Source of the DNA: a virus
Length of the DNA: 27,321 bases
Reading direction: 5' to 3' (one strand)
IMG/VR virus record: IMGVR_UViG_3300047373_000076
Span: 1 to 27,321 of that record
The notes beneath the pieces are model-generated. The model saw only the letters and a list, made by a program, of their open reading frames with translations. It ran no database searches and was not told where the DNA came from. Below, in pieces: positions 2,568 through 27,236 of this stretch; positions within the stretch are counted from its first letter, which is position 1; each line of letters begins with the position of its first letter. The position numbers and the translations under genes are program-made.

Positions 2568-2570
2568 CAA

Positions 2571-4062: not shown

Positions 4063-4070
4063 TATTACTT

Positions 4071-12121: not shown

Positions 12122-12150
12122 TTGACACACTATTTGTCATATGCTATATT
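12122..12150 (+). promoter_or_regulatory. Extended -10 sigma70-type promoter
   Basis: Perfect TTGACA (12122-12127), 17-base spacer, TGC plus TATATT (12145-12150). The predicted start is near 12157. It follows the pattern of four other promoters in this window: TTGACA, N14, TGn, then a -10. Drives the gene at 12180. Confidence 0.8.
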
Positions 12151-12168
12151 AGTTATGATAACAAATAG
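12130..12168 (+). promoter_or_regulatory. Inverted repeat enclosing the promoter -10; RBS-blocking hairpin in read-through RNA
   Basis: CTATTTGT (12130-12137) is the exact reverse complement of ACAAATAG (12161-12168). CATA/TATG inside can add four pairs with a small bulge. The right arm runs into the AGGAG (12167-12171) of the gene at 12180. The left arm is upstream of the predicted start (about 12157), so only RNA arriving from upstream could fold this way. Confidence 0.6.
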
Positions 12169-12179
12169 GAGTGATTCGA

Positions 12180-12416
12180 ATGGATGATATCATAACATAT
12201 AAAGGTCAAGAGTTTGACGGTATTCATGGAGGACCTTTTGACAGGGGCATTATGGATTCTTATTATCGTAGGGGTTATAGTCCTCACAAGTATCCTAACG
12301 GAACTCACAACCTACCACGTATCGATAAAGATAATGGGCTGACTGCCGATGAGACTCATGCATACTGTATGGGATTTGAATATAATGAAGAATGTGGAGA
12401 TTATAAAGAATGGTAA
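12180..12416 (+). CDS. Conserved small phage protein, 78 aa
   Basis: From ATG 12180 (AGGAG eight bases upstream) the protein begins MDDIITYKGQEFDGIHGG. The HGGPFDRGIMDSYYRRG segment with PHKYPNG and a terminal GDYKEW is one I recognise as widespread in large marine phages, without a known function. It is soluble and aromatic/glycine-rich. Its expression appears to be under a local promoter with an overlapping RNA hairpin. The alternative GTG start at 12171 would place the codon inside the Shine-Dalgarno. Confidence 0.75.
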   Translation: MDDIITYKGQEFDGIHGGPFDRGIMDSYYRRGYSPHKYPNGTHNLPRIDKDNGLTADETHAYCMGFEYNEECGDYKEW

Positions 12417-12586
12417 AACAGAAAATGTTTGTTGCAAAATACATGCTATTTAATGGTGTATCCAAAGAAGCTTACTTTACATCGAATAAAGAAGCAATGA
12501 AATGGGTTACTGAAGCAAATAGTAGTAATCTACTAGAAAGCTTTATCATCGATAATCGTGATGTTGGAATGGAAGAGTTCATATGA
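12410..12586 (+). CDS. Small hypothetical protein, 58 aa
   Basis: A short frame starting seven bases before the previous stop and ending with an ATGA overlap into the nuclease gene. It begins MVKQKMFVAKYMLFNGVSKE and reads as a beta-beta-alpha fold (YFTSNKEAMKWVTEAN). Tight overlaps at both ends support a real gene. No family recognised. Confidence 0.7.
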   Translation: MVKQKMFVAKYMLFNGVSKEAYFTSNKEAMKWVTEANSSNLLESFIIDNRDVGMEEFI

Positions 12587-13425
12587 TATTAATTGATTAC
12601 AATGCTATTGCGGTAAGTACGTTTCTATCGTCAAAGGTAGATCCAACTGAAGATGCTTTACGGCATATGATTCTTAACCAGATCCGTATGTATCGTGCCA
12701 AATACTTTAAAGAGTTTGGTGAGGTATGTATTGTTGCTGATGGTACAGGAAACTTCCGCAAAGATATCTTTCCACAATACAAACATAAGCGTAGGAAGTC
12801 ACGTGACGAAGGTAGTATTGATTGGAATGAAGTGTTTCGTTGTATCAATCTTATTCGTGATGAGATCCGTGATAACTTTCCATATCGAGTCGTACATCAA
12901 GAAGGTTGTGAGGCCGATGATTCTATTGCGCAAATTTGTTACAACACACAAGAGTTTGGTTGCTATGAGCCAGTGATGATTATATCTGGTGATAAAGACT
13001 TTGCTCAACTACAAACACTGAAGAATGTGCAACAGTATTCTCCTGTCACAAAAAAGATGATAGTAGAGCCAAACCCACGTTTCTTTTTAGAAGATCATAT
13101 CCTTAAAGGTGATGCTTCTGATGGTGTTCCTAATGTACTGAGTGACGATAATGTGTTTGTTGATGAACGTAGACAGAATACCTTAACTGCTAAAAAGAAA
13201 GCAATGCTTATGGAAGATCCATCTGCACTAGGAGACGAAGTCCTACGTAACATACATCGTAATCGTAAGCTGATAGACCTCAAAGAGTGTCCAGAAAGTG
13301 TAAAACAAGATATTATAAATAACTACGATAGTCAAGACCCTTCAGCTAATAATACTAAGGTTCTTAATTATCTCTTGACTAATCGATGTAGATTATTAAT
13401 TGAAAGTGTAGGAGAGTTTATTTAA
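12583..13425 (+). CDS. rnh: T4 RNase H-type 5'-3' nuclease (FEN family)
   Basis: 280 aa; removes RNA primers and 5' flaps from lagging-strand fragments. FEN/5'-nuclease motifs appear in order: D5 in LIDYN, VADG (51-54), CEADDS with E110, D112 and D113, SGDKDFAQLQ with D137 and D139, and GDASDGVPN with D177 and D180 next to the helix-hairpin region. These are the two-metal acidic residues expected for activity. T4 RNase H is 305 aa, so the length fits. The start overlaps the previous gene by ATGA. A TATAAATA octamer at 13314 lies near its end. Confidence 0.88.
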   Translation: MILIDYNAIAVSTFLSSKVDPTEDALRHMILNQIRMYRAKYFKEFGEVCIVADGTGNFRKDIFPQYKHKRRKSRDEGSIDWNEVFRCINLIRDEIRDNFPYRVVHQEGCEADDSIAQICYNTQEFGCYEPVMIISGDKDFAQLQTLKNVQQYSPVTKKMIVEPNPRFFLEDHILKGDASDGVPNVLSDDNVFVDERRQNTLTAKKKAMLMEDPSALGDEVLRNIHRNRKLIDLKECPESVKQDIINNYDSQDPSANNTKVLNYLLTNRCRLLIESVGEFI

Positions 13426-13426
13426 C

Positions 13427-13849
13427 ATGACACTAGTTTATGAAGTTCTGCAAGACGTTCTAAATGCAGAGACAAAAGAGGATCGAATTAAGATTCTTAA
13501 AAAGAATGAATCATGGCCTTTAAAGGACATTATTCGTGGAACCATGGACGAGACAGTAAAGTGGAATTTACCAAAAGGTGCTCCACCATATACGCCTAAC
13601 GTAGAAGGTTCCGCACCATCATCCCTAGCAAAACAACATAAGAAGTTTGTCAACTTTGTAAAAGGTGGACCCGGTGACAACTTGCCGCCTATTCGAAGAG
13701 AGAACTTGTTTGTTGAAATCTTAGAAGCCATACATCCCAAAGATGCGCTCTTGGTGATTGATATGATCAATAAGAAACGGATGAAGGGTTTGACCCGAAA
13801 AGTTGTTTATGAATCCTTCCCAGGATTACTCAAGGATGCCTCTGGCTAA
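13427..13849 (+). CDS. Conserved T4-like phage protein (DUF6433-like), 140 aa
   Basis: Begins MTLVYEVLQDVLNAETKEDR. The features I recognise are an N-terminal helix, KWNLPKGAPPY, a LxxFxKGG-type segment (FVNFVKGGPG), ENLFVEILEAIHPKDA and a KGLTRKVVYESFP tail. These fit a conserved T4-like phage family listed as DUF6433 (from memory). It follows the 5'-nuclease gene by one base and is followed by a strong terminator, so the two end a replication unit. A role in replication is inferred only from position. Confidence 0.75.
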   Translation: MTLVYEVLQDVLNAETKEDRIKILKKNESWPLKDIIRGTMDETVKWNLPKGAPPYTPNVEGSAPSSLAKQHKKFVNFVKGGPGDNLPPIRRENLFVEILEAIHPKDALLVIDMINKKRMKGLTRKVVYESFPGLLKDASG

Positions 13850-13881
13850 TGAATAACCAAAAACTGTAACCAACTAACCGA

Positions 13882-13911
13882 GGTCATCCCATTAATGGGT
13901 TGGCCTTTTTT
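13882..13911 (+). terminator. Rho-independent terminator
   Basis: GGTCATCCCA (13882-13891) and TGGGTTGGCC (13896-13905) form a 10-position stem (one mismatch, one G-T wobble) around a TTAA loop, followed by six T. It lies just after the stop of the DUF6433-like gene and is the clearest terminator in the window. Confidence 0.85.
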
Positions 13912-13933
13912 ACTTTAAGGAAAACTAACTAAT

Positions 13934-14107
13934 ATGATATCAGCACAAATTGAGCGTCTCAAAAGAGACTCACGTGAACTAACAACATATTCAAAGAAAC
14001 TGGCTAAAAAGGGTAGAAGCGACTTAGTCCATAAGATTATGTTAAAGAAAGAGTTCATTGATCAGCACATAGCGGATGTAGTGTCGGAGCAAAATAAGTT
14101 AAATTAA
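13934..14107 (+). CDS. Small coiled-coil phage protein, 57 aa
   Basis: A small helical, strongly basic protein beginning MISAQIERLKRDSRELTTY, with SKKLAKKGRSDLVHKIMLKK in the middle, forming a probable antiparallel coiled coil. Similar 55-60 aa proteins are frequent in marine T4-like phages. The AAGGA upstream (13916-13920) is rather far (about 14 bases), so the initiation signal is weak. It sits between the terminator and the next promoter and may be expressed by read-through. Confidence 0.65.
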   Translation: MISAQIERLKRDSRELTTYSKKLAKKGRSDLVHKIMLKKEFIDQHIADVVSEQNKLN

Positions 14108-14121
14108 TCTAAAGGAATCGC

Positions 14122-14150
14122 TTGACACCTTTGCTGATTGTGTGTATAAT
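14122..14150 (+). promoter_or_regulatory. Strong sigma70-type promoter
   Basis: TTGACA (14122-14127), 17-base spacer and TATAAT (14145-14150), both perfect consensus hexamers. Start expected near 14157. It drives the gene at 14184 and possibly those after it. Confidence 0.85.
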
Positions 14151-14174
14151 AAGATAACATTGTTAGCAAAGGTG
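14126..14174 (+). promoter_or_regulatory. 10-bp inverted repeat enclosing the promoter; RBS-blocking hairpin in read-through RNA
   Basis: CACCTTTGCT (14126-14135) is the exact reverse complement of AGCAAAGGTG (14165-14174), and GAT/GTT inside can add three more pairs with wobbles. The right arm contains the first half of the Shine-Dalgarno GGTGGAG (14171-14177) of the gene at 14184. The left arm overlaps the -35 and is absent from RNA started at about 14157. Confidence 0.7.
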
Positions 14175-14183
14175 GAGAGTATT

Positions 14184-14753
14184 ATGAATATCTTTATATT
14201 AGATAAGTGTCCTGTCAAATCAGCACAGATGCAGTGCGATAAACATGTAGTTAAAATGATCCTAGAAAGTGGTCAAATGCTATCTACTGCACACCGTATG
14301 TTAGACGGTAAACTAACAAAACGTCCATCACAATCAGGCAAGACTATGTCTAAGTATTGGGAGCTATCAGATCCTATTATGGAAAAAGCACTATACAAAG
14401 CTGTGCATACTGGTCACCCATGTACTGTATGGACTATGGAAACTAATTCTAATTACAATTGGCATTACAAACACTTCATTGCTCTATGCGATGAGTATAC
14501 CAAACGTTATGGTAAGGTGCACATGACAGATACTAAACTGCGTGATATACTACGCCGCCCACCTGTAATGACTAACTACAGTAATGAGCGCACACCTTTT
14601 AGACTTGCTATGGGTGCATCACCAGAATGTATTGACCATTCAGATCCTATCGGTTCATACCGTAAGTTCTATCAAACCAAGCAAGAGCGTTTCTCTATGA
14701 CTTGGACTAACTCTATCGTTCCAGATTGGTTTAGATATAACGTAGCTATATAA
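14184..14753 (+). CDS. Conserved phage protein of unknown function, 189 aa
   Basis: Starts at ATG 14184 with GGTGGAG six bases upstream; the longer frame from 14142 runs through the promoter -10 and is rejected. It begins MNIFILDKCPVKSAQMQCDK. CDKHVVKMILESGQMLSTAH is the hallmark of a family common in large phages, with several invariant His, Cys and Asp that could bind a metal or form an active site. Other conserved pieces are HPCTVW, NYNWHYKHF and the C-terminal SYRKFYQ...PDWFRY. Function is not established to my knowledge. Expression is likely early, from its own promoter. Confidence 0.75.
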   Translation: MNIFILDKCPVKSAQMQCDKHVVKMILESGQMLSTAHRMLDGKLTKRPSQSGKTMSKYWELSDPIMEKALYKAVHTGHPCTVWTMETNSNYNWHYKHFIALCDEYTKRYGKVHMTDTKLRDILRRPPVMTNYSNERTPFRLAMGASPECIDHSDPIGSYRKFYQTKQERFSMTWTNSIVPDWFRYNVAI

Positions 14754-14778
14754 GAGCATAACAGATAATGGATGGATC

Positions 14779-15012
14779 ATGCCAGTATATACAATAAGAG
14801 ACAAGCATAGCGGTGAAGAGTGGGATACCGTAATGTCATTTGGTGCTCTACAAGACTATCTCGAAGAAAACCCCAACTTAGTTCAAGCTTTATCAACACC
14901 CAAGATTGTTGCACAAACAGGTGGTACGTTGTCTAGAACATCAGATGGTTGGAAAGATCATCTAAACAATATGCATAAACATGCGGGACGAGAAAGTAAA
15001 ATTAAAACATGA
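14779..15012 (+). CDS. Small conserved phage protein, 77 aa
   Basis: Begins MPVYTIRDKHSGEEWDTVMS. This pattern, followed by LQDYLEENPNLVQALSTPKIV and a TSDGWKDHLNNMHKHAG tail, resembles FmdB-type small regulatory proteins in overall layout, but the zinc-binding cysteines are missing. It overlaps the PhoH gene by four bases (ATGA) and is probably in the same unit. Role unknown. Confidence 0.7.
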   Translation: MPVYTIRDKHSGEEWDTVMSFGALQDYLEENPNLVQALSTPKIVAQTGGTLSRTSDGWKDHLNNMHKHAGRESKIKT

Positions 15013-15704
15013 GTCGGAAGCAGACTACCAAGAGCATGATCCTACGTTTGGATAACATGTCAGAATTTGAACCTATTACCGACAATCAAGCACTAGCATG
15101 TGAAGCATGGGAAGAAGGAGACAATCTTGTTTTATCAGGATCAGCAGGAACAGGTAAGACTTTTCTTGCTATCTCTTTAGGACTTGAAGAAGTTCTTGAC
15201 AAAGAGACAGAATATGATAAACTAACAGTTATAAGATCTATTGTTCCAACAAGGGACATTGGGTTTTTGCCAGGAAATGAAGACGAAAAGAAACAAGCGT
15301 ATGCATCACCCTATATGGGTATCCTAACTGAGTTGTTCCAAGACAATCAGGCATGGATGAAGCTACAGGCTTCTAACAGCATAGCGTTTGAAAGTACGTC
15401 ATTCATTCGTGGTATTACATTAAATGACACGATTATTGTCGTTGACGAAATGCAGAACTTGACCTTTCACGAGTTGGATTCGGTTATCACTCGTATTGGC
15501 AACAACTGTAAGATTATCTTCTGCGGAGATTTCCATCAGTCGGATTTCCGCTTTGAAGACGAGAAGAATGGACTGCCACCTTTTTTGAATATTCTTGAGC
15601 AGATGAGAGACTTCACGACTGTAAATTTTGATTGGAAAGACATTGTACGATCAGGTATTGTACGAGACTATATAATGACTAAGGAAATGAATGGAATAAG
15701 GTAA
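15009..15704 (+). CDS. phoH: PhoH-like P-loop ATPase
   Basis: 231 aa, the usual size of phage PhoH proteins. Walker A is GSAGTGKT (44-51). The PhoH-type segment VPTRDIGFLPGNEDEK (80-94) carries the conserved GFLPG. Walker B is IIVVDEMQN (142-150, D146-E147), and IIFCGDFHQSD is the following sensor region. PhoH proteins are ATPases with RNA/DNA-related roles and are very common in marine phages; their role in infection is unsettled. Overlaps its neighbours on both sides, so translation is coupled. Confidence 0.9.
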   Translation: MSRKQTTKSMILRLDNMSEFEPITDNQALACEAWEEGDNLVLSGSAGTGKTFLAISLGLEEVLDKETEYDKLTVIRSIVPTRDIGFLPGNEDEKKQAYASPYMGILTELFQDNQAWMKLQASNSIAFESTSFIRGITLNDTIIVVDEMQNLTFHELDSVITRIGNNCKIIFCGDFHQSDFRFEDEKNGLPPFLNILEQMRDFTTVNFDWKDIVRSGIVRDYIMTKEMNGIR

Positions 15705-15862
15705 TGGCTAAATTTGCTAGGTACGATCCAAGAAACAAGAAGATGAATAGGAATAAGACGAAAGCAATCAATAAAGATTTCCGTATTAAACCTATTGAGA
15801 AGAAAGTGAAAGATATAAAGAATGAGGAAGTTCAATCACACTCCACTGGACTTAGGGTATGA
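15704..15862 (+). CDS. Small basic phage protein, 52 aa
   Basis: Starts at the TAATG overlap after PhoH and ends 41 bases inside the next gene. The sequence begins MAKFARYDPRNKKMNRNK, a start I recognise from small basic proteins of T4-like marine phages, and continues Lys-rich. Probably nucleic-acid associated; no function known. Confidence 0.7.
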   Translation: MAKFARYDPRNKKMNRNKTKAINKDFRIKPIEKKVKDIKNEEVQSHSTGLRV

Positions 15863-16508
15863 AGATTTACTTGCTGAAACCGCATCAACTGGTAGAACGT
15901 ATGTATGTCCAGAAGGTAATAGATATCCTAGTATCACCACTGTGCTATCAATACTCAGTCGGGACTCAATCGCAAAATGGCGAAAAAAAGTAGGTGAAGA
16001 GGAAGCTAATAGGGTTTCACATCGTGCTTCTACAAGAGGTACGGCAGTTCACGACATTGTTGAAAAGTATTTAGATAATGAAAACATAGATCCAACTAAA
16101 TATACATTAGATGTAATACAAAGTTGGATGAACCTTATGCCCATCTTAGATGAGCGTATTGGCGACATCTTTATTCAAGAAGCTCCACTCTACTCCAAAC
16201 ATCTTGGTGTGGCAGGTAGAGTTGACTGCGTTGGATACTTTGATGGTGTGCCTAGTATAATTGATTTTAAAACGAGTAAAAGACCGAAGAAACGTGAATG
16301 GGTAACAAGTTATTTTGCACAAGAAGCCGCATATGCAATTATGTGGGAAGAAAGAACTGGAATGCCTATCACAAACCTTGTAACAATAATGGATGTAGAT
16401 GGACATGAACCTGTCGTATATAAAGAACACCGTGATACTTGGGTCCCCAAGTTACTTGAGACAATTGATCTCTACTGGAATGACAAAAAGAAAAACACTC
16501 TCAATTAA
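15822..16508 (+). CDS. PD-(D/E)XK exonuclease, RecB/Cas4-like, 228 aa
   Basis: Motifs of the RecB-type nuclease fold appear in order: RGTAVHDIVE with H77, GRVDCVGYFDG with D135, IIDFKTSK with D148 and K150, and Q167-E-A-A-Y171 (QxxxY). These are the metal-binding and catalytic residues of the family. The protein probably trims DNA ends during phage recombination or host DNA breakdown. Start ATG 15822 overlaps the previous small gene by 41 bases. Substrate polarity cannot be read from sequence. Confidence 0.85.
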   Translation: MRKFNHTPLDLGYEDLLAETASTGRTYVCPEGNRYPSITTVLSILSRDSIAKWRKKVGEEEANRVSHRASTRGTAVHDIVEKYLDNENIDPTKYTLDVIQSWMNLMPILDERIGDIFIQEAPLYSKHLGVAGRVDCVGYFDGVPSIIDFKTSKRPKKREWVTSYFAQEAAYAIMWEERTGMPITNLVTIMDVDGHEPVVYKEHRDTWVPKLLETIDLYWNDKKKNTLN

Positions 16509-16608
16509 ACAATGGGAACGTAAACGGAATGGGAAGATGAACCTTGTATGGATGCTTGGTTCATTCTACTGTTTAAACAACTGGACTGATTGGAAACTAG
16601 GAAAATGA
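16480..16608 (+). CDS. Mini-protein, 42 aa
   Basis: A short frame starting 29 bases before the exonuclease stop and ending in an ATGA overlap with the next gene. It begins MTKRKTLSIKQWERKRNGKM, then a tryptophan-rich, moderately hydrophobic segment (LVWMLGSFYCLNNW). The Shine-Dalgarno is poor, so it relies on coupling. A longer in-frame start at 16399 lies wholly inside the exonuclease gene and is rejected. Real gene is likely but not certain. Confidence 0.5.
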   Translation: MTKRKTLSIKQWERKRNGKMNLVWMLGSFYCLNNWTDWKLGK

Positions 16609-16829
16609 ATATCTTCTCCATCTTAAACCTACGTACTGAATTTGATGAAGTTATGCGTAAGTCTAATAAGTCATGTAAAAGTGATATAGATAGTTTAAGA
16701 GCTTTTGTAAAGCAATGTACTAGACCGTCTAAGGCATGTGTATTGGCTAAAGCTATTATAGGAGAAATCAATGGAACAGAAACCAAATTCGTTCGGGGTG
16801 ACACCAAAGGTACTATGCGCAGACTCTGA
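16605..16829 (+). CDS. Small hypothetical protein, 74 aa
   Basis: ATG 16605 overlaps the previous stop (ATGA). The product begins MNIFSILNLRTEFDEVMRKS and is helical and basic with three Cys. Its last 59 bases overlap the next gene, whose own Shine-Dalgarno lies within it. A TTG at 16590 is an alternative start. No family recognised. Confidence 0.55.
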   Translation: MNIFSILNLRTEFDEVMRKSNKSCKSDIDSLRAFVKQCTRPSKACVLAKAIIGEINGTETKFVRGDTKGTMRRL

Positions 16830-17136
16830 CCTTAATAAGGCAGACAGTAATAACGATGGTGTTATCACAGACGCAGAAATAGCTCGTCAAGAGAGAATGA
16901 TTCGTCTCGAAAACGAAGATAAAAAAGAAGATGCCCAACGACAAATGGCTTGGTTTTGTCTTGTGGGAATGCTTGGATATCCGTTTGCAGTTATCCTAGC
17001 CGTTGTGTTTGGAGTAGACAGTGCCGCTAAAATCCTAGGAGATATGGCGGGCGTATATTTCATTGCGGTTGCAGGAATAATTGCGGCATTCTTTGGTGCC
17101 GCCGCTATCAAGTCTAACGCCGCCGCCAAGAAGTAA
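16771..17136 (+). CDS. EF-hand membrane protein with two transmembrane helices, 121 aa
   Basis: ATG 16771 has AGGAG six bases upstream. Residues 25-36 (DSNNDGVITDAE) form a complete EF-hand calcium loop with D25, N27, D29 and E36. Two hydrophobic helices follow: about 59-81 (WFCLVGMLGYPFAVILAVVF) and about 89-113 (LGDMAGVYFIAVAGIIAAFF). The C terminus is Ala/Lys. Such EF-hand plus two-helix proteins occur in other large phages. The topology would suit a holin or a calcium-sensing membrane protein, but neither is shown. Confidence 0.75.
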   Translation: MEQKPNSFGVTPKVLCADSDLNKADSNNDGVITDAEIARQERMIRLENEDKKEDAQRQMAWFCLVGMLGYPFAVILAVVFGVDSAAKILGDMAGVYFIAVAGIIAAFFGAAAIKSNAAAKK

Positions 17137-17151
17137 TTATGAAAGTTTGTT

Positions 17152-17937
17152 ATGAAAAGATTAATCTATCAAGTGTATGTTGGGGCAAGATCTAACTTAT
17201 ACGATTGGTGTACTGAAAGTGTAAAGGCATATGCAGAAAGCATTAATGCCGATTATATCTTACAGACAATGCCCAAACTGTTTATCAAACCAGATCCCTT
17301 TACTACTAATCGTAGTGAGGGTGCTTCTCGTTTAGGATACCTTCCTATCTTTGAGAAAGAGAATGCCTTTGAGTATTTCCCTGAGTATGATCAGATAGCT
17401 ATCATTGACAGTGACATCTACATTCGTGAGAACTCTCCCAATGTATTTGATGAGATAGGTGATAACGACTTCGCAGGTGTCTATGAACGTGAGATGCCAG
17501 TCACTCCCGAATACGCTAATAAGATCCGTAACTATTCTAGAATGCAGTATAGTTCTCTTGACGGTCAGTCAGGTATGGACTTCGACTTCGATCATCCTAA
17601 TGGTGGTGCGTTTATGAATATGGGCATGATGGTCATGAATAAATCGTTCTCAAAACAATTAAATGGTATGTCACCCAAAGAGTGGATCACCCAACCTATG
17701 TTTAAAGCATTCGTTGATGGTAAGGGTACGTGGAAGTGGTCAACAGATCAGACACTGCTTAACACATTTATTAACATGAATAAGATCAGTGTAAAACATC
17801 TTGACTATAAGTTCAATGCATTGTATACTGCAATTCCTAATGACTATTTGAAAGAAGCACATTTTATCCACTTCTTCCTTAAGGATAAGCTTCCTAACAG
17901 AGGTGAGAATGTAGAGGAGCTAAAGCAAATTGTCTAA
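17152..17937 (+). CDS. GT-A glycosyltransferase, GT8-like, 261 aa
   Basis: Starts the glycosyltransferase run. The fold begins with KRLIYQVYVG, an AYAESINADYIL helix-strand and then IAIIDSDIYI with D86-S-D88, the DxD motif that binds the metal-nucleotide sugar. GGAFMNMGMMVMNKS later fits the GT8-type acceptor region, and AHFIHFFLKDK fits the C-terminal His. The sugar and acceptor are unknown. Overlaps the next gene by eight bases. Likely a cytoplasmic enzyme that modifies virion, glycan or other phage-specified acceptors. Confidence 0.75.
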   Translation: MKRLIYQVYVGARSNLYDWCTESVKAYAESINADYILQTMPKLFIKPDPFTTNRSEGASRLGYLPIFEKENAFEYFPEYDQIAIIDSDIYIRENSPNVFDEIGDNDFAGVYEREMPVTPEYANKIRNYSRMQYSSLDGQSGMDFDFDHPNGGAFMNMGMMVMNKSFSKQLNGMSPKEWITQPMFKAFVDGKGTWKWSTDQTLLNTFINMNKISVKHLDYKFNALYTAIPNDYLKEAHFIHFFLKDKLPNRGENVEELKQIV

Positions 17938-18724: not shown

Positions 18725-18740
18725 CGAAAAAGGAACTAAT

Positions 18741-21319: not shown

Positions 21320-21938
21320 TAAACAATTCAATAAACTTTATATAACAGGTTGTGATAAGAATACAGACTGGATGCTACCTTGGTTCGAAGAGAACTTTAC
21401 TCTACACAATCAAGATGCACAATTGGCTGTATATGAGTTCGATACATTCAGAGAGGATTTGGAAGGTTGGTTTAAGAAACCTGCAGCGATGATAGATGCG
21501 TCTCAGATTGCAGATCAGGTTGTTTGGATTGATACCGACTGCCACATCAAGGGCAATCTAGATGGGATCTTTAATCACATCACACCCAATAAACTTACTA
21601 TGGCTATTGATCGTCCTTGGACTACACGCCGTTCTAATCGTGGAACTTGGTATAATAGTGGTGTTGTGGGCTTTGAAGGTGTTCCACCAGTACTATCCGA
21701 ATGGGCTAGATACATTCAAGATGGCTTGACAAAAGAAGTTGGTGATCAGGAAGTATTGAACTGGATGTTAGGTGGGGATCCTATTAGAGAGATTACTCAC
21801 ATGAATACATTGCCACCTATGTACAATTTTCTACGCCTAGATATACAAGATGAGTACCCAGGATATGAGAGTGCTAAGGTTGTGCACTGGACAGGTGGTA
21901 AGGGTAAAGAAGTAATTAAAGAGATGATGAATGTCTGA
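21306..21938 (+). CDS. GT-A glycosyltransferase-like protein, 210 aa
   Basis: ATG 21306 has GGAG six bases upstream; ATG 21288 lies further inside the previous gene. VVWIDTDCHIKG contains D76-T-D78 (DxD). TWYNSGVVGF is the N-S-G acceptor motif and AKVVHWTGGKGKEV the C-terminal His segment typical of GT8-like folds. The only GCWGC pentamer found in the window (21483-21487) lies in this gene. Substrate unknown. Confidence 0.73.
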   Translation: MGLSSKQFNKLYITGCDKNTDWMLPWFEENFTLHNQDAQLAVYEFDTFREDLEGWFKKPAAMIDASQIADQVVWIDTDCHIKGNLDGIFNHITPNKLTMAIDRPWTTRRSNRGTWYNSGVVGFEGVPPVLSEWARYIQDGLTKEVGDQEVLNWMLGGDPIREITHMNTLPPMYNFLRLDIQDEYPGYESAKVVHWTGGKGKEVIKEMMNV

Positions 21939-22530
21939 AGATATTGTTAATGTTATTGGTAATGGTCAGTCCGCTGGATATTTCAAGGAAGATCAAAAGG
22001 GCATTCGCCTAACGTGTAATCTACCACCATTTGAAGTGAAGAATGTATTTGCAACTATTATGGTTGACTTCAAGATGATGAGAGCAATCCAAGAAGGAAG
22101 TGTAACAGTTCCTGGTCATTGGATACTTGGTAACAGACCTAAGATCCACATGGAACAAAACTCTAGCTTTTACATGAAGCATGCCTCACAGATACGAGGC
22201 TTCTATCTAGAAGTACCACCATATGCACGTAATGCCACAGATTTTAATTGTGGACATGTAGCAACTCACTATGGTGTGAGTAGATGGAAACCAAAAGTAT
22301 GTAACATGTTTGGATTTAACTCTATCTTTGACTTTGACATGACAAGTGCTACAGACTTCTATCTCGAATCAGATCGTGGTGATATAAACAATAATAGATT
22401 AGCAAACAATTGGAGAGGTATTTGGCCTCAGTTGTTTAATGAATTTCCAGATACAGAATTTAGGCTACACCACAAGCATGCTAATGCTAAAATGCAGTGT
22501 CCCAAAAATGTCACTATTATTACTCCTTGA
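21931..22530 (+). CDS. Unassigned protein of the glycosyltransferase cluster, 199 aa
   Basis: Begins MSEDIVNVIGNGQSAGYF. The GNGxS turn after a beta strand resembles the nucleotide-binding loop at the N terminus of DUF115 or sialyltransferase-like proteins, and FNCGHVATHYGV and MFGFNSIFDFDMTSATDFY are further conserved-looking blocks. It overlaps the preceding glycosyltransferase by eight bases and ends the cluster, so it probably belongs to the same pathway. Glycosyltransferase activity is a guess. Confidence 0.6.
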   Translation: MSEDIVNVIGNGQSAGYFKEDQKGIRLTCNLPPFEVKNVFATIMVDFKMMRAIQEGSVTVPGHWILGNRPKIHMEQNSSFYMKHASQIRGFYLEVPPYARNATDFNCGHVATHYGVSRWKPKVCNMFGFNSIFDFDMTSATDFYLESDRGDINNNRLANNWRGIWPQLFNEFPDTEFRLHHKHANAKMQCPKNVTIITP

Positions 22531-22555
22531 CATCAATTAGAACGTTTGTTATTAT
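22527..22555 (+). promoter_or_regulatory. Extended -10 sigma70-type promoter
   Basis: TTGACA (22527-22532), 17-base spacer, TGT plus TATTAT (22550-22555). The -35 overlaps the stop codon of the previous gene. Predicted start near 22562. A late-type TATAAATA box overlaps its -10, giving an early/late pair in front of the small genes at 22592 and 22629. Confidence 0.7.
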
Positions 22556-22562
22556 ATAAATA
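22555..22562 (+). promoter_or_regulatory. T4-type late promoter box TATAAATA
   Basis: A second intergenic copy of the exact octamer TATAAATA, sharing its first base with the sigma70 -10 just upstream. It would start RNA near 22570, before the small gene at 22592. Confidence 0.5.
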
Positions 22563-22591
22563 ATAAAGCGACTAAAGAAGGATCATTAACT

Positions 22592-22678
22592 ATGACCGAT
22601 TCAGACCAATCCTTCGATAACAAGAAGGATGACCCTCACGATGACTGGTCAAAACACCCAATCCCCCAACCTAGATAG
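22592..22678 (+). CDS. Very small acidic protein, 28 aa
   Basis: ATG 22592 with GAAGGA at about the right distance (22577-22582). The product is MTDSDQSFDNKKDDPHDDWS followed by eight more residues ending PQPR, strongly hydrophilic. Its second half overlaps the next gene in another frame, so it may act as a leader peptide controlling that gene's translation. It has a double promoter directly upstream. Confidence 0.45.
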   Translation: MTDSDQSFDNKKDDPHDDWSKHPIPQPR

Positions 22679-22952
22679 CATATACAAAAAGTACTCAGAT
22701 GTAACCGACAGGAACGACAACATGTTAATCCCTTGGTATCTGATGGCATGTTATGCATACTACGTTGACGATGAGCCAATACTTGAAGATGTTATCTTTG
22801 ATAGGCTAACTAAGAAACTACTTAAAGTGTTCGATGACGTTGAGCACATGCATAAACATTATATAACAAAGGATATGCTAGAAGCAGGAACATACCTAGG
22901 AGAATATCCGTCTAGAATAAAGTATGTTGTAGAAGATATTAAAACAACATAA
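22629..22952 (+). CDS. Conserved phage protein with LigA-Ia-like motif, 107 aa
   Basis: A helical protein with WYLMACYAYYVDDEPILEDV then IFDRLTKKLL. The YY-x2-D-x-P-x3-D-x2-FD-x-L pattern resembles the N-terminal (Ia) helix pair of NAD-dependent DNA ligases, although no catalytic domain is present. The later HMHKHYITKDML contains clustered His. Starts at 22629 or 22641 are both possible; the Shine-Dalgarno spacing is poor for each, which fits coupling to the upstream mini-ORF. Function unknown. Confidence 0.65.
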   Translation: MTLTMTGQNTQSPNLDSIYKKYSDVTDRNDNMLIPWYLMACYAYYVDDEPILEDVIFDRLTKKLLKVFDDVEHMHKHYITKDMLEAGTYLGEYPSRIKYVVEDIKTT

Positions 22953-22956
22953 ACAC

Positions 22957-22985
22957 TTGACAACCCCTCAGACAAATGCTAATAT
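22957..22985 (+). promoter_or_regulatory. Extended -10 sigma70-type promoter
   Basis: TTGACA (22957-22962), 17-base spacer, TGC plus TAATAT (22980-22985). Predicted start near 22992. Drives the gene at 23008 and possibly the exported protein at 23177. Confidence 0.78.
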
Positions 22986-22992
22986 GAGGGGT
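22963..22992 (+). promoter_or_regulatory. Inverted repeat straddling the -10 (operator or hairpin)
   Basis: ACCCCTCA (22963-22970) is the exact reverse complement of TGAGGGGT (22985-22992), with 14 bases between that contain most of the -10. Arm centres are about 22 bp apart, near two helical turns, so a dimeric repressor site is possible. Alternatively the RNA stem in read-through transcripts would sit six bases before the Shine-Dalgarno at 22998. Confidence 0.55.
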
Positions 22993-23007
22993 AAATTGGA
23001 GAATCAA

Positions 23008-23166
23008 ATGGCATACCCGAATCACTTAATCGACTACGAAGCAGATCCAGAGCAATTACTAAAACTTAAAAAAGCTCTTTCTGAAGCGAAACTTGATTAT
23101 ATGATTACAAACCGTGATGGAGCCTTGGTGCAACTGAACGTATGGGTAGGCAAGATTAATGATTAA
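23008..23166 (+). CDS. Small hypothetical protein, 52 aa
   Basis: From ATG 23008 (GGAG six bases upstream) the product begins MAYPNHLIDYEADPEQLLKL, then an amphipathic helix and a beta hairpin (YMITNRDGALVQLNVWVG). An in-frame ATG at 22984 lies upstream of the expected transcription start and is rejected. It has its own promoter with an overlapping inverted repeat. No family recognised. Confidence 0.7.
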   Translation: MAYPNHLIDYEADPEQLLKLKKALSEAKLDYMITNRDGALVQLNVWVGKIND

Positions 23167-23176
23167 GGAGAATAAT

Positions 23177-23671
23177 ATGAATGATGATAAATTAGGCTAC
23201 TTGGCTATTGGTGCCGCCGCTATACTAATTGCTTTTACTGCGACAAGTGCAAAGGCAAACAATGCAACGCCAATTAACGGTACTATTCAAGATTATTATA
23301 AAGTTGTACAAGACAGTGAACCATACACAAAGAAAGAGTGTGTGAATGTAAACGTTCCAGTATATGGTAATGTTACACAAGAAGGAGATGCCGCAGGTGG
23401 AGCCTTGCTTGGTATGATCCTTGGTGGTCTTGTTGGTAAAGGTGTTACAGGTGACGATAAAGGTGCCGCCGCAGGAGCTATCTTTGGTGGTCTTGTTGGT
23501 GCCGATAAAGGTGCTAAACCAAAATCTGGACAGGTTGTCACAGGATACCGAACTGAGAACCGTTGCGATTACGTAACTTATTATCGTACCATTGAGCGTA
23601 CTGAGTATGATTACTCAATCATTAATTGGAAAATTGACGGTGTTACTTACACAACTGAATTTGTAAAATAA
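23177..23671 (+). CDS. Exported glycine-zipper protein, 164 aa
   Basis: ATG 23177 has a perfect AAGGAG six bases upstream. Residues 6-27 (LGYLAIGAAAILIAFTATSA then KA) form a signal peptide with an Ala-Lys-Ala cleavage site. Residues 73-109 form two glycine-zipper repeats (GGALLGMILGGLVGKG and GAAAGAIFGGLVGAD), as in the 17-kDa antigen family of outer-membrane proteins. Cys55 and a later Cys (NRCDY) could form a disulphide. A phage-coded envelope protein of this kind might affect superinfection or envelope integrity; the role is inferred. Confidence 0.75.
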   Translation: MNDDKLGYLAIGAAAILIAFTATSAKANNATPINGTIQDYYKVVQDSEPYTKKECVNVNVPVYGNVTQEGDAAGGALLGMILGGLVGKGVTGDDKGAAAGAIFGGLVGADKGAKPKSGQVVTGYRTENRCDYVTYYRTIERTEYDYSIINWKIDGVTYTTEFVK

Positions 23672-24303
23672 TGAGCGTCACGGAGTATACAGTAGCTCCG
23701 ATAACCATACAGGAAGCCACACCATTTGTAGAGAATTGGCACTACTCCAAGAATACAAATGGTTTGGCTACACGATATTGTTTTGGACTGTTTAGAGGAT
23801 CCGAAATGATTGGTTGTATGATTTACGCCTACTTAGGTATGGCGAGTGTTTGGAAGAAGTATGGTGAAGTAGAGACAGACGTAGTAGAACTAAGGAGACT
23901 ATGCTGTATTGACGATACTCCCAAGAACACTGAAAGCTACTTTATAGCGAAAACTATTAAGTGGTTGAAGGCAGAGACTGATTGTAAAGTAGTAGTGAGT
24001 TATGCAGATACCATGCAAGGTCACGTTGGAACTATATACCATGCATCTAACTTCTATCATCTAGGCATGACAGCCAAGGGTAGATCGATAAAGATTAAAG
24101 GTAATAATCGTCTCTATCATGAGAAGACTATTAGGACATACTATCAACCTGTGAACGGAGAAAGACGTTTGAAACCATATGCTCAGAAGATCAAAGAGCA
24201 GTTGGAGAATGGTGAAGCAGAGTATGTCCATAGTGAAGGTAAACACATATTCGTCTATCCTTTGAATAAAAAAGAGAGACGAAAGTATAGGAAGTTAATA
24301 TGA
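23671..24303 (+). CDS. Mom-like acyltransferase (GNAT fold), 210 aa
   Basis: The layout resembles the phage Mu Mom family, whose member converts adenine to a carbamoylmethyl form and blocks restriction: W23-H-Y-S26, a central FGLFRGSEMIGCMIYAY strand pair, VVELRRLCCIDDTPKNTESY (71-90), VVVSYADTMQGHVGTIYHAS (107-126), and a basic C terminus. Blocks such as ELxRL, SYAD and GHxGTIYxAxNF are what I recognise. The substrate (DNA base or other) is not proven. It starts on the last base of the previous stop and overlaps the membrane-protein gene by four bases. Confidence 0.7.
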   Translation: MSVTEYTVAPITIQEATPFVENWHYSKNTNGLATRYCFGLFRGSEMIGCMIYAYLGMASVWKKYGEVETDVVELRRLCCIDDTPKNTESYFIAKTIKWLKAETDCKVVVSYADTMQGHVGTIYHASNFYHLGMTAKGRSIKIKGNNRLYHEKTIRTYYQPVNGERRLKPYAQKIKEQLENGEAEYVHSEGKHIFVYPLNKKERRKYRKLI

Positions 24304-24590
24304 CAAGTTTTATTATGGATTGGTGGAATTTAGTGATGGATCATGAAAGAAATCCATTGTCTAACATCAAAGATTTGAGAGTACGTCATCTCGTTATGCA
24401 AATACTTGCATGGATGTGGTGTATCGTATTCACGGCAATGACAGGTACATGGATGTACTTGGGTATCAATATTCTGTTTCACGCATTGCTATTGTGTGGG
24501 ATCTTTATAACAGTATCGGTGTTCGAAGCCGCTAAACGTAAACCGCAGATCTTTTATACACTGCGTGGTGAAGGTGGAGAACACGACTAG
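24300..24590 (+). CDS. Conserved two-helix phage membrane protein, 96 aa
   Basis: An N-terminal amphipathic part (MDWWNLVMDHERNPLSNI) is followed by two membrane helices, about 32-53 (VMQILAWMWCIVFTAMTGTW) and about 55-74 (YLGINILFHALLLCGIFITV), then a FEAAKRKPQIFYTLRGEGG tail. I recognise this layout as a frequent protein of marine T4-like phages, of unknown function. Overlaps the Mom-like gene by ATGA. Inner membrane location is expected. Confidence 0.7.
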   Translation: MTSFIMDWWNLVMDHERNPLSNIKDLRVRHLVMQILAWMWCIVFTAMTGTWMYLGINILFHALLLCGIFITVSVFEAAKRKPQIFYTLRGEGGEHD

Positions 24591-24613
24591 GACGTTCTGG
24601 GTAGCACCAGATA

Positions 24614-24774
24614 ATATGGGTTAGCAAATCCCATATGATGAGAAGTGATGTTGCAGTCACAACAAAAGGCTCGATGGAAGTATCTCGGCACGAGTTTGCC
24701 GTTAGCGAGATAGAGCGGAGTTATACCAAAGGATATTAAACGTACTACAATATCTGACGTTGAGAACTCTTCTC
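24614..24774 (+). ncRNA. Candidate structured RNA upstream of the tRNA
   Basis: The 200-base gap 24591-24790 holds no plausible gene but has four local hairpins in a row. ATATGGG/CCCATAT (24614-24636) and TATCTCG/CGAGATA (24681-24712) each have 7-bp perfect stems; the latter contains an inner GCA/TGC pair. TGTTG/CAACA (24649-24664) and GAGAA/TTCTC (24762-24774) each have 5 bp. The sequence ends 16 bases before tRNA-Arg. It may be a small RNA or a long processed leader; no known RNA family is recognised. Confidence 0.35.
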
Positions 24775-24790
24775 GCATACCACAGATTTA

Positions 24791-24867
24791 GTTTCCTTAG
24801 CTCAGTTGGATAGAGCAAGTGCCTTCTAAGCACTAGGTCATAGGTTCGAATCCTATAGGGAACACCA
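24791..24867 (+). tRNA. tRNA-Arg(UCU)
   Basis: A complete cloverleaf: acceptor GTTTCCT with AGGGAAC (one wobble), D stem GCTC/GAGC, anticodon stem AGTGC/GCACT with loop CTTCTAA (anticodon TCT at 24825-24827), and T arm ATAGG-TTCGAAT-CCTAT. Discriminator A is followed by an encoded CCA (24865-24867). It reads AGA/AGG arginine codons, which this phage uses freely, so it probably supports late translation in a host where the matching tRNA is limiting. Confidence 0.93.
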
Positions 24868-24887
24868 AACTAGAAGGAATGGTTCAT

Positions 24888-25412
24888 TTGACAAGCCTAG
24901 ATATGCTAAAGAGGACAGGAACGAATGCTGAGAGTGATGAATGTTATACTCCATCAGATCAGATCATTCCTCTTCTTAAATATTTAGATAAGGATAAGAC
25001 TTACTATGAAGCAACTTCTGGAATCTCTTCTAACATACTTGACGGAATGGTTAAATTCGGTTATAATGTGGTTGGAAGTGGGGGAAGAGACTTTTTTGAA
25101 TGCAATTCTGATGACGTGTTTGATGGGATTATTACTAACCCACCTTATAGTCTAAAGGATAAGTTCATTGAACACTGCTATTCGTTAGGGAAACCATTTG
25201 CGTTATTCCTACCTGTAGCATCTTTCCAAGGTGGTAAACGTGGACAGATGTTCATGGACTATGGTATGTCATGTTTAGTCTACAATAATAGAGTAGACTT
25301 CACAGGTGGTGGTGCACCACATTTTGGTAACGCTTGGTTTATGCATGGGATCCTACCACCCAACACGATATATTGGGCTAATAACCCAAAGATGAGAGGA
25401 AAGCGAAAATGA
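24888..25412 (+). CDS. NPPY-type DNA methylase-like protein, 174 aa
   Basis: TNPPYSLKDKFIEHCYSLG carries the NPPY motif IV of N6-adenine and related amino-methylases, and FALFLPVASFQGGKR and TGGGAPHFGNAWFMHG are typical following blocks. Motif I is degenerate: EATSGISSN where F/P-x-x-G-x-G is usual, and the acidic residue after beta 2 is missing (VVGSGGRDFF). No target-recognition domain is present. TTG 24888 has AGAAGGA nine bases upstream and is preferred; ATG 24879 touches the Shine-Dalgarno. Overlaps the ABC-GNAT gene by ATGA. Activity is doubtful or altered. Confidence 0.65.
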   Translation: MTSLDMLKRTGTNAESDECYTPSDQIIPLLKYLDKDKTYYEATSGISSNILDGMVKFGYNVVGSGGRDFFECNSDDVFDGIITNPPYSLKDKFIEHCYSLGKPFALFLPVASFQGGKRGQMFMDYGMSCLVYNNRVDFTGGGAPHFGNAWFMHGILPPNTIYWANNPKMRGKRK

Positions 25413-26470
25413 AGGTAACAGTAGAACGTGATAAGATCACAGATGAGATCAGCGAGATCTTCGACTATGAGTTTGACGGAACATCTACGTTCCATCCTCA
25501 TGAGATTAATTCATTAGATCGTGAAACCGTTCTATCTGATTTTGGTATTGGTTTAATTGTGGGACCTTCGGGATCTGGCAAGACTACTTTACTGAAAGAG
25601 TTTGGTGAAGAGTATGAACCTTATTGGTTTGATAACAAATCTATTGCTTCTCATTTCGATGACATCGATGACGTACAGGACAGACTAGGTGCTGTTGGAT
25701 TTAACTCTGTACCGTCTTGGATGCGTCCCTATCATGTACTATCTAATGGTGAACAGTTTAGAGCTAGGTTAGCTCGACAGTTAGACAGCAACATTGTTGT
25801 TGATGAGTTCACATCTGTTATCGACAGAGATGTTGCCAAGAGTTGTTCTAATGCTATCTCACGATATGTTAAGAGACACAACTTAAAGAACATTGTATTT
25901 TCATCTTGTCATTATGACATTATTGAGTGGTTGCAACCAGATTGGGTATTTGATACTCAGACTGGTAAGCTGACCACAAGGGGGTATCAAAGGCCAGATA
26001 TCGTTCTGGAAATTTTACCTTGTACCAGAGACATCTGGACGCACTTCAGCGACCACCACTATCTCGACCACAACATCCACAAAGGTGCATCTTGTTGGAT
26101 CGCAACATGGAACGGCAGACTTGTCGGATTTCTTTCTAGCCTAAGCATGCCTTCGGGCAGTCTTAAGAATGCATGGAGAGCACATAGAGTTGTGATACTT
26201 CCAGAGTTCCAGGGGCTAGGTATTGGTGCCAGACTTATGGATGCCCTAGGTGATATGCACGTTGCAGAAGGTAAAAGATTCTTTCTCAAAACAAGTCACC
26301 CTAGACTAGGCGAATACTGTAATAGAAATGATGCTTGGAAAGGCACATCAAAGAACGGTATTGCCAGACCTGACTATAAAACTAATTCTAGTACCTATGG
26401 CGGATTTGCTGAAGGACTACAAAAGCATATGAATAGAATATGCTATTCCCATGAATATATCGGAAAATAG
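25409..26470 (+). CDS. ABC-ATPase / GNAT acetyltransferase fusion, 353 aa
   Basis: Residues about 40-190 form an ABC-type ATPase without membrane segments: Walker A GPSGSGKT (52-59), signature LSNGEQ (111-116), Walker B NIVVDEF (128-134), switch His SSCHYD (H168). Residues about 200-353 form a GNAT domain with HRVVILPEFQGLGIGARLM (259-277), whose Q-G-L-G-I-G is the acetyl-CoA pyrophosphate loop, then TSHPRLG. Soluble ABC-GNAT fusions of this type occur in phages and bacteria but are poorly characterised. By analogy with Mom and TmcA, an ATP-driven base or RNA modification is plausible, not shown. Coupled to the methylase-like gene. Confidence 0.8.
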   Translation: MKVTVERDKITDEISEIFDYEFDGTSTFHPHEINSLDRETVLSDFGIGLIVGPSGSGKTTLLKEFGEEYEPYWFDNKSIASHFDDIDDVQDRLGAVGFNSVPSWMRPYHVLSNGEQFRARLARQLDSNIVVDEFTSVIDRDVAKSCSNAISRYVKRHNLKNIVFSSCHYDIIEWLQPDWVFDTQTGKLTTRGYQRPDIVLEILPCTRDIWTHFSDHHYLDHNIHKGASCWIATWNGRLVGFLSSLSMPSGSLKNAWRAHRVVILPEFQGLGIGARLMDALGDMHVAEGKRFFLKTSHPRLGEYCNRNDAWKGTSKNGIARPDYKTNSSTYGGFAEGLQKHMNRICYSHEYIGK

Positions 26471-26473
26471 TAC

Positions 26474-26502
26474 TTGACATTAGACGAATCACATGCTATT
26501 AA
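26474..26502 (+). promoter_or_regulatory. Sigma70-type promoter with extended -10
   Basis: TTGACA (26474-26479), 17-base spacer, TGC plus TATTAA (26497-26502). Predicted start near 26509. Drives the gene at 26532. The -10 is the weakest match of the family. Confidence 0.7.
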
Positions 26503-26536
26503 TAGTATGTAATCTCAGAAAGGATTCGTTAATGTC
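26476..26536 (+). promoter_or_regulatory. 14-bp hairpin enclosing the promoter and burying the start codon
   Basis: GACATTA-g-ACGAATC (26476-26490) pairs with GATTCGT-TAATGTC (26523-26536): seven plus seven base pairs with one bulged G. The right arm contains the end of AAAGGA and the whole ATG at 26532-26534. The left arm is the -35 and early spacer, so it is absent from RNA started at about 26509 and present only in read-through RNA from the ABC-GNAT gene. Confidence 0.75.
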
Positions 26537-27205: not shown

Positions 27206-27236
27206 ATTAGTATAGACAAAAGAAAGTGAGAATCAC

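Follow-up and report, generated by a model that had tools for sequence, protein, structure and literature searches.

In T4-like phages, T4 included, a subset of sigma70-type (early) promoters probably carry in the spacer between their -35 and -10 elements a translational lock on the gene they serve, and sites 2 and 3 of the window studied here probably belong to this subset. The window is the whole 27,321 nt stretch analysed (IMGVR_UViG_3300047373_000076, positions 1 to 27,321) and comes from a marine T4-like phage, of which it is a part. In the proposed mechanism, the spacer would encode a strand complementary to the translation-initiation region of the same gene. Read-through RNA from the upstream gene would hold both strands, which would fold together and hide the Shine-Dalgarno (SD) sequence or the start codon. 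RNA from the gene's own promoter would start 3' of the spacer strand, and since this local RNA begins after that strand, its ribosome-binding site would be free. Translation of the gene would be confined to the time when its own early promoter is active, and middle or late read-through RNA would leave it silent. The proposal rests on complementarity, on an excess over chance, on placement (spacer with initiation region), on compensatory turnover and on a predicted change in accessibility. We infer from these that read-through RNA is made at the sites and that the helix forms in cells, where it would block translation and limit the genes to the early period.

Promoter sites in the window

The pattern TTGACA-N16-18-TANNNT occurred 7 times on the two strands of the window, against 1.87 expected (pattern scan). 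Promoters and start sites were predicted, p values are per test and uncorrected for the number of tests, and the opening cost is the cost (kcal/mol) of opening the SD-ATG stretch in long or local RNA. The features of the four proposed sites were as follows.

12122..12150, + strand: site 1 promoter, TTGACA-N17-TATATT (sequence, pattern scan)
12130..12137, + strand: site 1 left arm, CTATTTGT, marginal (sequence, stem scoring, fold)
12161..12168, + strand: site 1 right arm, ACAAATAG, adjoining the SD, marginal (sequence, fold; decays in relatives)
12180..12416, + strand: site 1 gene, 78 aa, unmatched in profile/family searches
14122..14150, + strand: site 2 sigma70-type promoter, TTGACA-N17-TATAAT (sequence, pattern scan)
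14126..14135, + strand: site 2 left arm, CACCTTTGCT, within the spacer between -35 and -10 (sequence, stem scoring, fold)
14165..14174, + strand: site 2 right arm, AGCAAAGGTG, into the SD (GGAG) (sequence, fold, homologues)
14184..14753, + strand: site 2 gene, 189 aa, pyrimidine-dimer glycosylase (DenV) family (PF03013 3.6e-05, phrog_624 9e-55)
22957..22985, + strand: site 4 promoter, TTGACA-N17-TAATAT (sequence, pattern scan)
22963..22992, + strand: site 4 inverted repeat, ACCCCTCA / TGAGGGGT, around the -10 (sequence, fold)
23008..23166, + strand: site 4 gene, 52 aa, unmatched in profile/family searches
26474..26502, + strand: site 3 promoter, TTGACA-N17-TATTAA, weak -10 with TGn (sequence, fold)
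26476..26490, + strand: site 3 left arm, GACATTAgACGAATC (fold)
26523..26536, + strand: site 3 right arm, GATTCGTTAATGTC, over the ATG at 26532 (fold)
26532..26822, + strand: site 3 gene, 96 aa, unmatched in profile/family searches

A preliminary description of this DNA had placed sigma70-type promoters, with the -10 between the arms of an inverted repeat, at three sites and possibly at a fourth. That arrangement was recovered at sites 1-3, and the promoters of the window sites are TTGACA-N17-TATAAT-like. At sites 1-4 the left arm ends 5' of the predicted -10 and therefore lies upstream of any expected start site. The description also had the right arm covering the SD or the ATG, with long RNA locked and local RNA free; folding bore out both points at sites 2 and 3, site 1 followed weakly, and site 4 did not follow. 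Two of the four sites (2 and 3) were strong and site 1 was marginal. The idea of four equal examples was dropped on the folding results, because site 4 stops short of the ribosome-binding site and site 1 is marginal.

At site 2, the -35 TTGACA (14122-14127) and the -10 TATAAT (14145-14150) flank a helix strand that can be extended inward to about 14141 through G-U pairs. Opening the SD-ATG stretch cost 14.8 kcal/mol in long RNA and 5.0 in local RNA; refolding with 40, 100 and 150 upstream bases gave 15.3, 12.8 and 12.2 against 3.5 for local RNA, and 0 of 200 spacer shuffles matched the cost. With both RNA versions folded, as had been proposed, the predicted helix over the SD was present in the read-through RNA only, and the same was true of the ATG helix at site 3. 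There, the -35 TTGACA lies at 26474-26479 and the weak -10 TATTAA at 26497-26502, and the helix, longer than first described, has 14 pairs around one bulge and takes in the ATG and part of the -35 box. Its opening cost was 12.7 long and 4.1 local (with the promoter coordinate one base off in that fold), or 8.6, 9.8 and 11.3 long and 4.0 local on refolding, and was matched by 3/200 spacer shuffles. Two relatives of the site 3 gene were found, both 100% identical.

The stem of site 1 has 8 bp and touches only the first AGGAG bases. Its score was at the 95th percentile of cross-pairs, and its opening cost (4.0 long, 4.3 local; 5.2-5.4 against 4.3 on refolding) was matched by 8/200 shuffles. The arms were broken in the homologues found in L004, L005 and G001, where the G001 spacer pairs elsewhere at -11.6, and were absent in those found in L142 and L148. 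At the possible fourth site, the promoter and the arms (22963-22970 and 22985-22992) were present as suggested, but the right arm shares the last -10 base, does not extend past the expected start site and stops 15 bases short of the ATG. Its opening cost (2.3 long, 1.8 local; 2.7-2.8 against 2.3 on refolding) was no better than chance, since 159/200 shuffles did equally well. Only identical sequences were found as relatives of site 4. This site, with its SD spared, resembles a class of hairpins that pair just after the -10.

Spacer pairing in T4-like phages and marine relatives

Stems between the spacer of a sigma70-type promoter (-35/-10) and the initiation region were counted as strong at <= -12 kcal/mol. 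In seven T4-like phages pooled, the spacer paired with its own initiation region in 26/240 starts, against 9.3 expected. The enrichment came from four of the seven: T4 (10/31 against 2.1 expected, 0/5000), JS98 (5/38 against 2.0), CC31 (4/30 against 2.0) and KVP40 (3/17 against 0.6). No enrichment was seen in this test for RB49 (p=0.46), RB69 (p=0.089) or 44RR (p=0.13). Among the outgroups, strong initiation-region stems were not enriched in FelixO1 (1/13 against 0.2, p=0.15), Syn9 (0/9) or S-PM2 (0/7); T5 had 0/9 with a shifted mean (p=0.025).

The T4 genes with this pairing include regB, denV, alc and motB.2. The preliminary description had set the window sites against the late promoters of T4; sigma70-type promoters of T4 itself carry the same design. 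The denV arms differ in sequence among T4 (TCTCCTGTAG / CTACAGGAGA), RB69 (TTCCTCCAAG / CTTGGAGGAA) and CC31 (ATCTCCGTTTGT / ACAAACGGAGAT), and complementarity is kept. Among T4-like orthologues compared within families, own pairing was favoured with p=2.5e-4 for the initiation region and 0/20000 for the whole leader. The 26 locks of the seven phages had a median opening cost of 13.1 long against 3.2 local, whereas the 214 other promoter starts of these phages had 4.2 against 3.1. For T4 gene e, whose lock is documented, RNA starting at -90, -40, -30 and -25 (points chosen by the analyst) gave 15.7, 15.1, 13.1 and 6.0. Gene e folds as published; as a class, the T4 TATAAATA promoters showed no enrichment (19 starts, p=0.30).

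At the marine loci (65 representatives), own spacer with initiation region gave -7.30 against -5.62 when permuted (0/20000), with 8/65 at <= -12 against 1.4 expected, and the position controls were flat (upstream-of-35 with initiation region, p=0.72; -10/discriminator with initiation region, p=0.76). Contig G010 had 9/42 strong stems against 1.8 expected. The window's nearest long relative, G001, was borderline at p=0.021 with 2/20 against 0.6, one of the two having been scanned from a wrong internal start. Mosig, HTVC008M, C48C1, G009, G011 and G012 showed no enrichment in the initiation-region test. Own pairing was stronger than cross pairing in the DenV-like marine family of site 2 (-9.83 against -6.11, 0/20000, 14 representatives) and only modestly so in the HAD-like gene family (p=0.011, 28 representatives).

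Covariation of the arms in related phages, which had been put forward as a check, was found at site 2, where the lineages L004-L008 and L009-L011 have changed yet complementary arms. The converse, homologues that keep gene and promoter and lose the arms, had been named as evidence against the switch, and here the picture is mixed, since several homologous loci show such loss. The design is missing from 9/14 promoter-bearing DenV-like representatives, and at the C48C1 locus (L130) gene and promoter are kept and the arms are gone. Together with the site 1 homologues, these armless loci indicate that the design is gained and lost over time and that the genes can do without it.

Second hairpin class and alternative explanations

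A second class of hairpins, commoner than the lock, pairs just after the -10, upstream of the SD, and spares the ribosome-binding site with equally strong stems; the lock does not explain it. In 44RR, one such hairpin is repeated. Control signals were also seen for upstream-of-35 with the initiation region in 44RR (p=0.004) and with the whole leader in 44RR (p=0.011) and KVP40 (p=0.017). Non-promoter starts showed no overall excess (49 own against 42 shuffled of 1236), with an excess in two phages, 44RR (15 against 4) and RB69 (8 against 1).

It is unlikely that the inverted repeats act on the promoter as DNA elements, whether operators or palindromes (a repressor dyad, or DNA structure at the -10), with incidental RNA pairing. 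In 48/96 strong stems the base directly 3' of the -10 is the first of the right arm, which makes the repeat near-symmetric about the promoter. The strand-asymmetry test for RNA, with G-U to A-C mispairs at 26:16 for own and 216:231 for cross pairs, leans towards RNA and is not decisive, so it is compatible with a role in DNA. Against this, no common arm sequence, as a shared repressor operator would need, was found among the window sites or between orthologues. The arms are unlike each other at each window site, as had been noted earlier, and they differ between orthologues too while complementarity stays, a pattern not expected of a single site bound by the same protein. An operator also has no need to pair with the SD, yet 3 or more SD nucleotides are paired with the right arm in 36/43 strong sites (the <= -12 rule; site 4 is counted although its SD is spared).

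That SD pairing is equally unpredicted if the hairpins serve the 3' end or the processing of the upstream mRNA, for instance as nuclease barriers after the stop, and happen to overlap the next promoter in a compact genome. This account, which we consider quite improbable, draws on the -35 often lying a few bases 3' of the upstream stop codon (abutting it in 27/43 locks and 165/352 others, p=0.053), on the SD-sparing second class, and on a precedent, seg43(25), where a free ribosome-binding site is preceded by a stable hairpin (accessible text of PMC2988022). It fails to predict the higher opening cost at strong sites.

Intrinsic terminators halting read-through RNA 5' of the gene are very improbable here: no T-run or U-tract follows the right arms at window sites 1-4, and what comes after or overlaps the right arm at sites 2 and 3 is the SD and the start codon. 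In favour of such an account, some marine relatives have stems that enclose the -35 box in their loop (upstream-of-35 with spacer, p=1e-4, 4/65 at <= -12 against 0.44) and a T-run follows at L018 (promoter 643) and, by eye, at L016:12807. Chance pairing of pyrimidine-rich spacers with purine-rich ribosome-binding sites, which could account for site 1 alone (95th percentile) and for the site 4 opening cost within its shuffles, is hardly credible in general, since real spacers permuted against real leaders, composition kept, formed fewer strong stems.

Relation to known locks and significance

The ribosome-binding sites of T4 e, soc, 49 and I-TevI, and likewise of segB, I-TevII/III and Aeh1 mobE, are sequestered in upstream-initiated RNA, and a promoter inside the structure gives RNA without the 5' strand (accessible text of PMC3014915, PMC2988022). 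The spacer-encoded lock resembles e, soc, 49 and I-TevI in having the promoter within the structure, a predicted local RNA without the 5' strand and predicted opening costs of the same order; by folding, the SD or start codon is paired in upstream-initiated RNA at sites 2 and 3, unlike at sites 1 and 4. It differs in that the 5' strand lies within the -35/-10 spacer and the inner promoter is sigma70-type rather than late; of the 5 occurrences of the late-promoter motif TATAAATA in the window, 0 are at the four sites. In the IS10/Tn10 transposase gene, fold-back inhibition works by read-through RNA from outside hiding the ribosome-binding site, which stays exposed in RNA made from the inner sigma70 promoter. 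That system concerns one transposase at an element end; here many unrelated phage genes have their own arms, and no transposase at an insertion-sequence end was found at the four sites (the site 2 gene belongs to PF03013, and no family was matched by the other three).

The promoters at T4 regB, alc, denV and motB.2 are of the T4 early class (sigma70, UP/-35/TGn/-10), to which the window sites belong minus the T4-specific details. One review describes the genes under such locks as all late (accessible text of PMC2988022); the T4 genes here include regB, for which a typical early promoter and a need for tight control are reported (accessible text of PMC3014915). A spacer/ribosome-binding-site link is not described in the accessible text of the 2010 early-promoter review (PMC2988021), and no description of locks in T4 early promoters was found among the matches listed or in the accessible text of these three reviews.

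The wider reading, that T4-like phages use the sigma70 early-promoter spacer as an anti-Shine-Dalgarno strand so that genes are silent except in own-promoter RNA, seems to us evenly balanced between true and false. With the same even prospect, the silenced genes may be those of host takeover and nucleic acids (regB, alc, denV, motB.2, ndd.4 and others). Known hairpins that hide a ribosome-binding site around an inner promoter delay late T4 genes (accessible text of PMC3014915, PMC2988022). If the reading is true, the device in sigma70-type early promoters would do the opposite job and end expression while transcription goes on, which would explain how synthesis of these proteins can stop at early-promoter shut-off though RNA polymerase still crosses the genes. 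The -35-in-loop terminators of some marine relatives would then solve this problem in another way, and the 17-base promoter spacer, usually taken as free sequence, could hold an RNA signal that exists only in read-through RNA.

Predicted promoter hairpins in the window

The window, a virus record of 27,321 bases, is very probably part of a marine T4-like phage that has a late sigma factor, because a relative, L008/G001 (an IMG/VR contig of 159,934 bases, 91% identical in the site-2 protein) encodes homologues of the late sigma factor, late promoter regulator, translation repressor, UvsY and major head protein of C48C1, as annotated in that phage, which is classified in the Kyanoviridae. In T4 the first three are named gp55, gp33 and RegA. 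Predicted sigma70-type promoters lie in putative hairpins at four sites, the left arm being in the -35/-10 spacer:

Site 1, 12122-12168: 8-bp arms beside the SD
Site 2, 14122-14184: 10-bp arm pair, extendable by G-U pairs
Site 3, 26474-26536: helix of 14 pairs with one bulge
Site 4, 22957-22992: clean 8-bp repeat

The preliminary description held that these hairpins, with site 4 as a doubtful case, hide the SD or ATG in read-through RNA, which carries both arms, and free it in RNA from the local promoter; the observation was confirmed in part and the interpretation partly supported. Site 2 was the best of the four, and its predicted folding fits the claim. Its right arm enters the SD of a gene whose 189-aa product belongs to the pyrimidine-dimer glycosylase (DenV) family (PF03013), and the predicted cost of opening the SD-ATG region was 14.8 kcal/mol in read-through versus 5.0 in local RNA (12.2-15.3 versus 3.5 with other flanks, matched by 0 of 200 spacer shuffles). 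The site 3 hairpin was also found, longer than first described, and it takes in the ATG and part of the -35 box; folding gave 12.7 for the long versus 4.1 for the local RNA (8.6-11.3 versus 4.0 with other flanks, reached by 3/200 shuffles). Its -10, TATTAA, is weak, and this promoter was absent from those found by the scans. At site 1 the arms were present, but the predicted accessibility switch was marginal (4.0 long versus 4.3 local; 5.2-5.4 versus 4.3 with other flanks, reached by 8/200 shuffles). At site 4 the repeat stood but the hiding of the ribosome-binding site did not: the right arm does not extend past the expected start site and stops 15 bases short of the ATG, and predicted accessibility was almost unchanged (2.3 versus 1.8; 159/200 shuffles did as well). 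The upstream stop codon lies 3 to 14 bases from the -35 at all four sites, and therefore there is no space for a separate terminator between them.

A fifth tightly packed TTGACA promoter (27177-27239) has no arms on the ribosome-binding site. At 22527-22562, TTGACA-N17-TATTAT overlaps TATAAATA by one base about 66 bases 5' of the ATG at 22629, and may represent overlapping early-type and late-type promoters; the window count of TATAAATA was not significant (5 versus 2.77 expected).

Spacer pairing in marine loci

From 1160 distinct marine gene starts, 115 with a strong promoter were reduced to 65 by dereplication. Pairing of the spacer with the initiation region (-20 to +6) was -7.30 for own versus -5.62 for permuted combinations (sd 0.26, 0/20000), and 8/65 stems reached <= -12 kcal/mol versus 1.4 expected. 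Non-promoter marine starts of equal geometry (n=739) gave 19 own versus 26 shuffled, and the signal vanished with the left region placed upstream of the -35 (p=0.72) or on the -10 (p=0.76). A separate signal between the upstream-of-35 region and the spacer (p=1e-4; 4/65 at <= -12 versus 0.44 expected) comes from stems whose loop holds the -35 box, some of them similar to terminators. Such stems, with the right arm in the spacer, were seen in L018 (promoters 643 and 4626) and L026 (gene start 7821), and by eye at L016:12807 and L047:4936; some in this group are followed by a T-run, resembling a terminator that overlaps a promoter.

Homologues of site 2 were found at 80 loci, 37 of them with a promoter under the rule used; their upstream regions comprised 18 distinct sequences, of which 14 remained after dereplication. 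Across these 14 representatives own pairing was -9.83 versus -6.11 permuted (0/20000); the strong pair was missing in 9/14, including the L070 group, whose "promoter" is situated within an upstream reading frame. A like design, with arms read by eye, precedes other genes in other marine contigs, such as one of 115 aa.

Arms in the site-2 family and before the 115-aa gene
Site 2, L001-L008, L028: CACCTTTGC(T)/(A)GCAAAGGTG
Site 2, L009-L011: CATCTCCAC/GTGGAGATG
Site 2, L071: CCTCTCTTGT/ACAAGAGAGG
Site 2, L036, L043, L045: CCCCTGATT/AATCAGGGG
115-aa gene, L073 (by eye): CATCCCTCTAC/GTAGAGGGATG
115-aa gene, L080 (by eye): ACATTCCCTCT/AGAGGGAATGT

At L033:8723-9079, the gene of a 119-aa protein that by its motif looks like sigma-factor region 4 lies behind a predicted 13-bp lock (CATCCTCTCTTGT/ACAAGAGAGGATG); in L047 and L049 the left arm is eroded.

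Predicted locks and a second hairpin class in T4 and its relatives

T4 and six relatives in the Straboviridae were scanned in the same way with an initiation region of -24 to +6. Stems at <= -12 numbered 26/240 versus 9.3 expected over seven phages, and the upstream-of-35 control reached significance in 44RR (p=0.004) and in none of the other six.

Predicted locks at <= -12, and second-class hairpins at <= -9 (observed versus expected)
T4: locks 10/31 promoter-start pairs versus 2.1; second class 6/24 versus 0.7
JS98: locks 5/38, p=0.0036, enriched; second class 8/28 versus 1.4
CC31: locks 4/30, p=0.0002, enriched; second class 4/23 versus 0.8
KVP40: locks 3/17, p=0.0016, enriched
RB69: locks 3/46, p=0.089, not enriched; second class 12/36 versus 2.9
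44RR: locks 1/34, p=0.13, not enriched; second class 12/31 versus 3.7
RB49: locks 0/44, p=0.46, not enriched; second class 15/40 versus 6.5

The seven strongest T4 stems precede motB.2, regB, alc, ndd.4, alt.-3, nrdC.8 and denV (scanned starts at ndd.4 and alc being slightly off the annotated ones). In six of them the -35 starts 3 to 8 bases past the upstream stop; at alt.-3 it lies within alt.-2. The predicted median opening cost of the 26 locks was 13.1 in long versus 3.2 in local RNA, against 4.2 versus 3.1 at the 214 other promoter starts, and a change of at least 4 kcal/mol was found in 25/26 locks versus 27/214 others. The documented lock of T4 gene e gave 15.7, 15.1, 13.1 and 6.0 by the same method from -90, -40, -30 and -25, start points chosen for the calculation rather than mapped.

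Orthologues were compared for 117 of the 240 genes, in 41 families, by shuffling leaders within families (initiation region, p=2.5e-4; whole leader, 0/20000). The letters differ while complementarity is kept at denV (T4, RB69, CC31), regB (T4, JS98; CC31 at -10.0) and alc (T4, JS98, CC31). Complementarity was missing from 44RR in all three families and from RB69 at alc, and the scan contained no JS98 denV start. Own pairing was no stronger than cross pairing in some families, for example -7.0 versus -8.5 in the largest.

With the whole leader used, 73/240 Straboviridae starts reached <= -12 versus 16.6 expected. Over 17 sequence sets, 48/96 strong stems start at the first base past the -10, and right-arm ends fell into two groups, one at or close to the SD and the other some 14-39 bases 5' of the start. 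Second-class stems pair in the stretch that separates the -10 from the initiation region, the right arm starting directly after the -10, with the extended -10 enclosed as a loop and the SD left free. Examples are T4 (NC_000866) at 65798 (ipII), 73938, 20611 and 129917, with others in RB69, JS98, 44RR, RB49 and further phages; G001 showed no enrichment of this class (p=0.89). Site 4 of the window resembles it. Within one gene family, T4, RB69 and JS98 carry the second class and CC31 carries the lock. A near-identical promoter hairpin, GATGGGACT with AGTCCCATC or GGTCCCATC, recurs in 44RR (L347:5010, L347:6938, L348:12900, L350:11957), and a promoter row in L294 (G010; 1482-4241), a 275-kb IMG/VR contig, has GT/CA-rich near-perfect palindromes around the -10.

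Relation to known locks

The IS10 transposase uses the same logic of hiding the ribosome-binding site. According to PMC3014915, the ribosome-binding sites of T4 e, soc, 49 and I-TevI are hidden in long RNA, those of e and I-TevI are freed by late promoters, and the regB promoter is a typical early one, the gene needing tight regulation. Genes so regulated "are all late genes" according to PMC2988022, and a spacer link to the ribosome-binding site is not described in the accessible portion of the T4 early-promoter review PMC2988021. The predicted lock mechanism is well supported at the level of sequence and structure. Its general form reaches beyond the preliminary description: whereas the inner promoter of the T4 late-gene lock is late, the predicted device is an early-promoter version of it.
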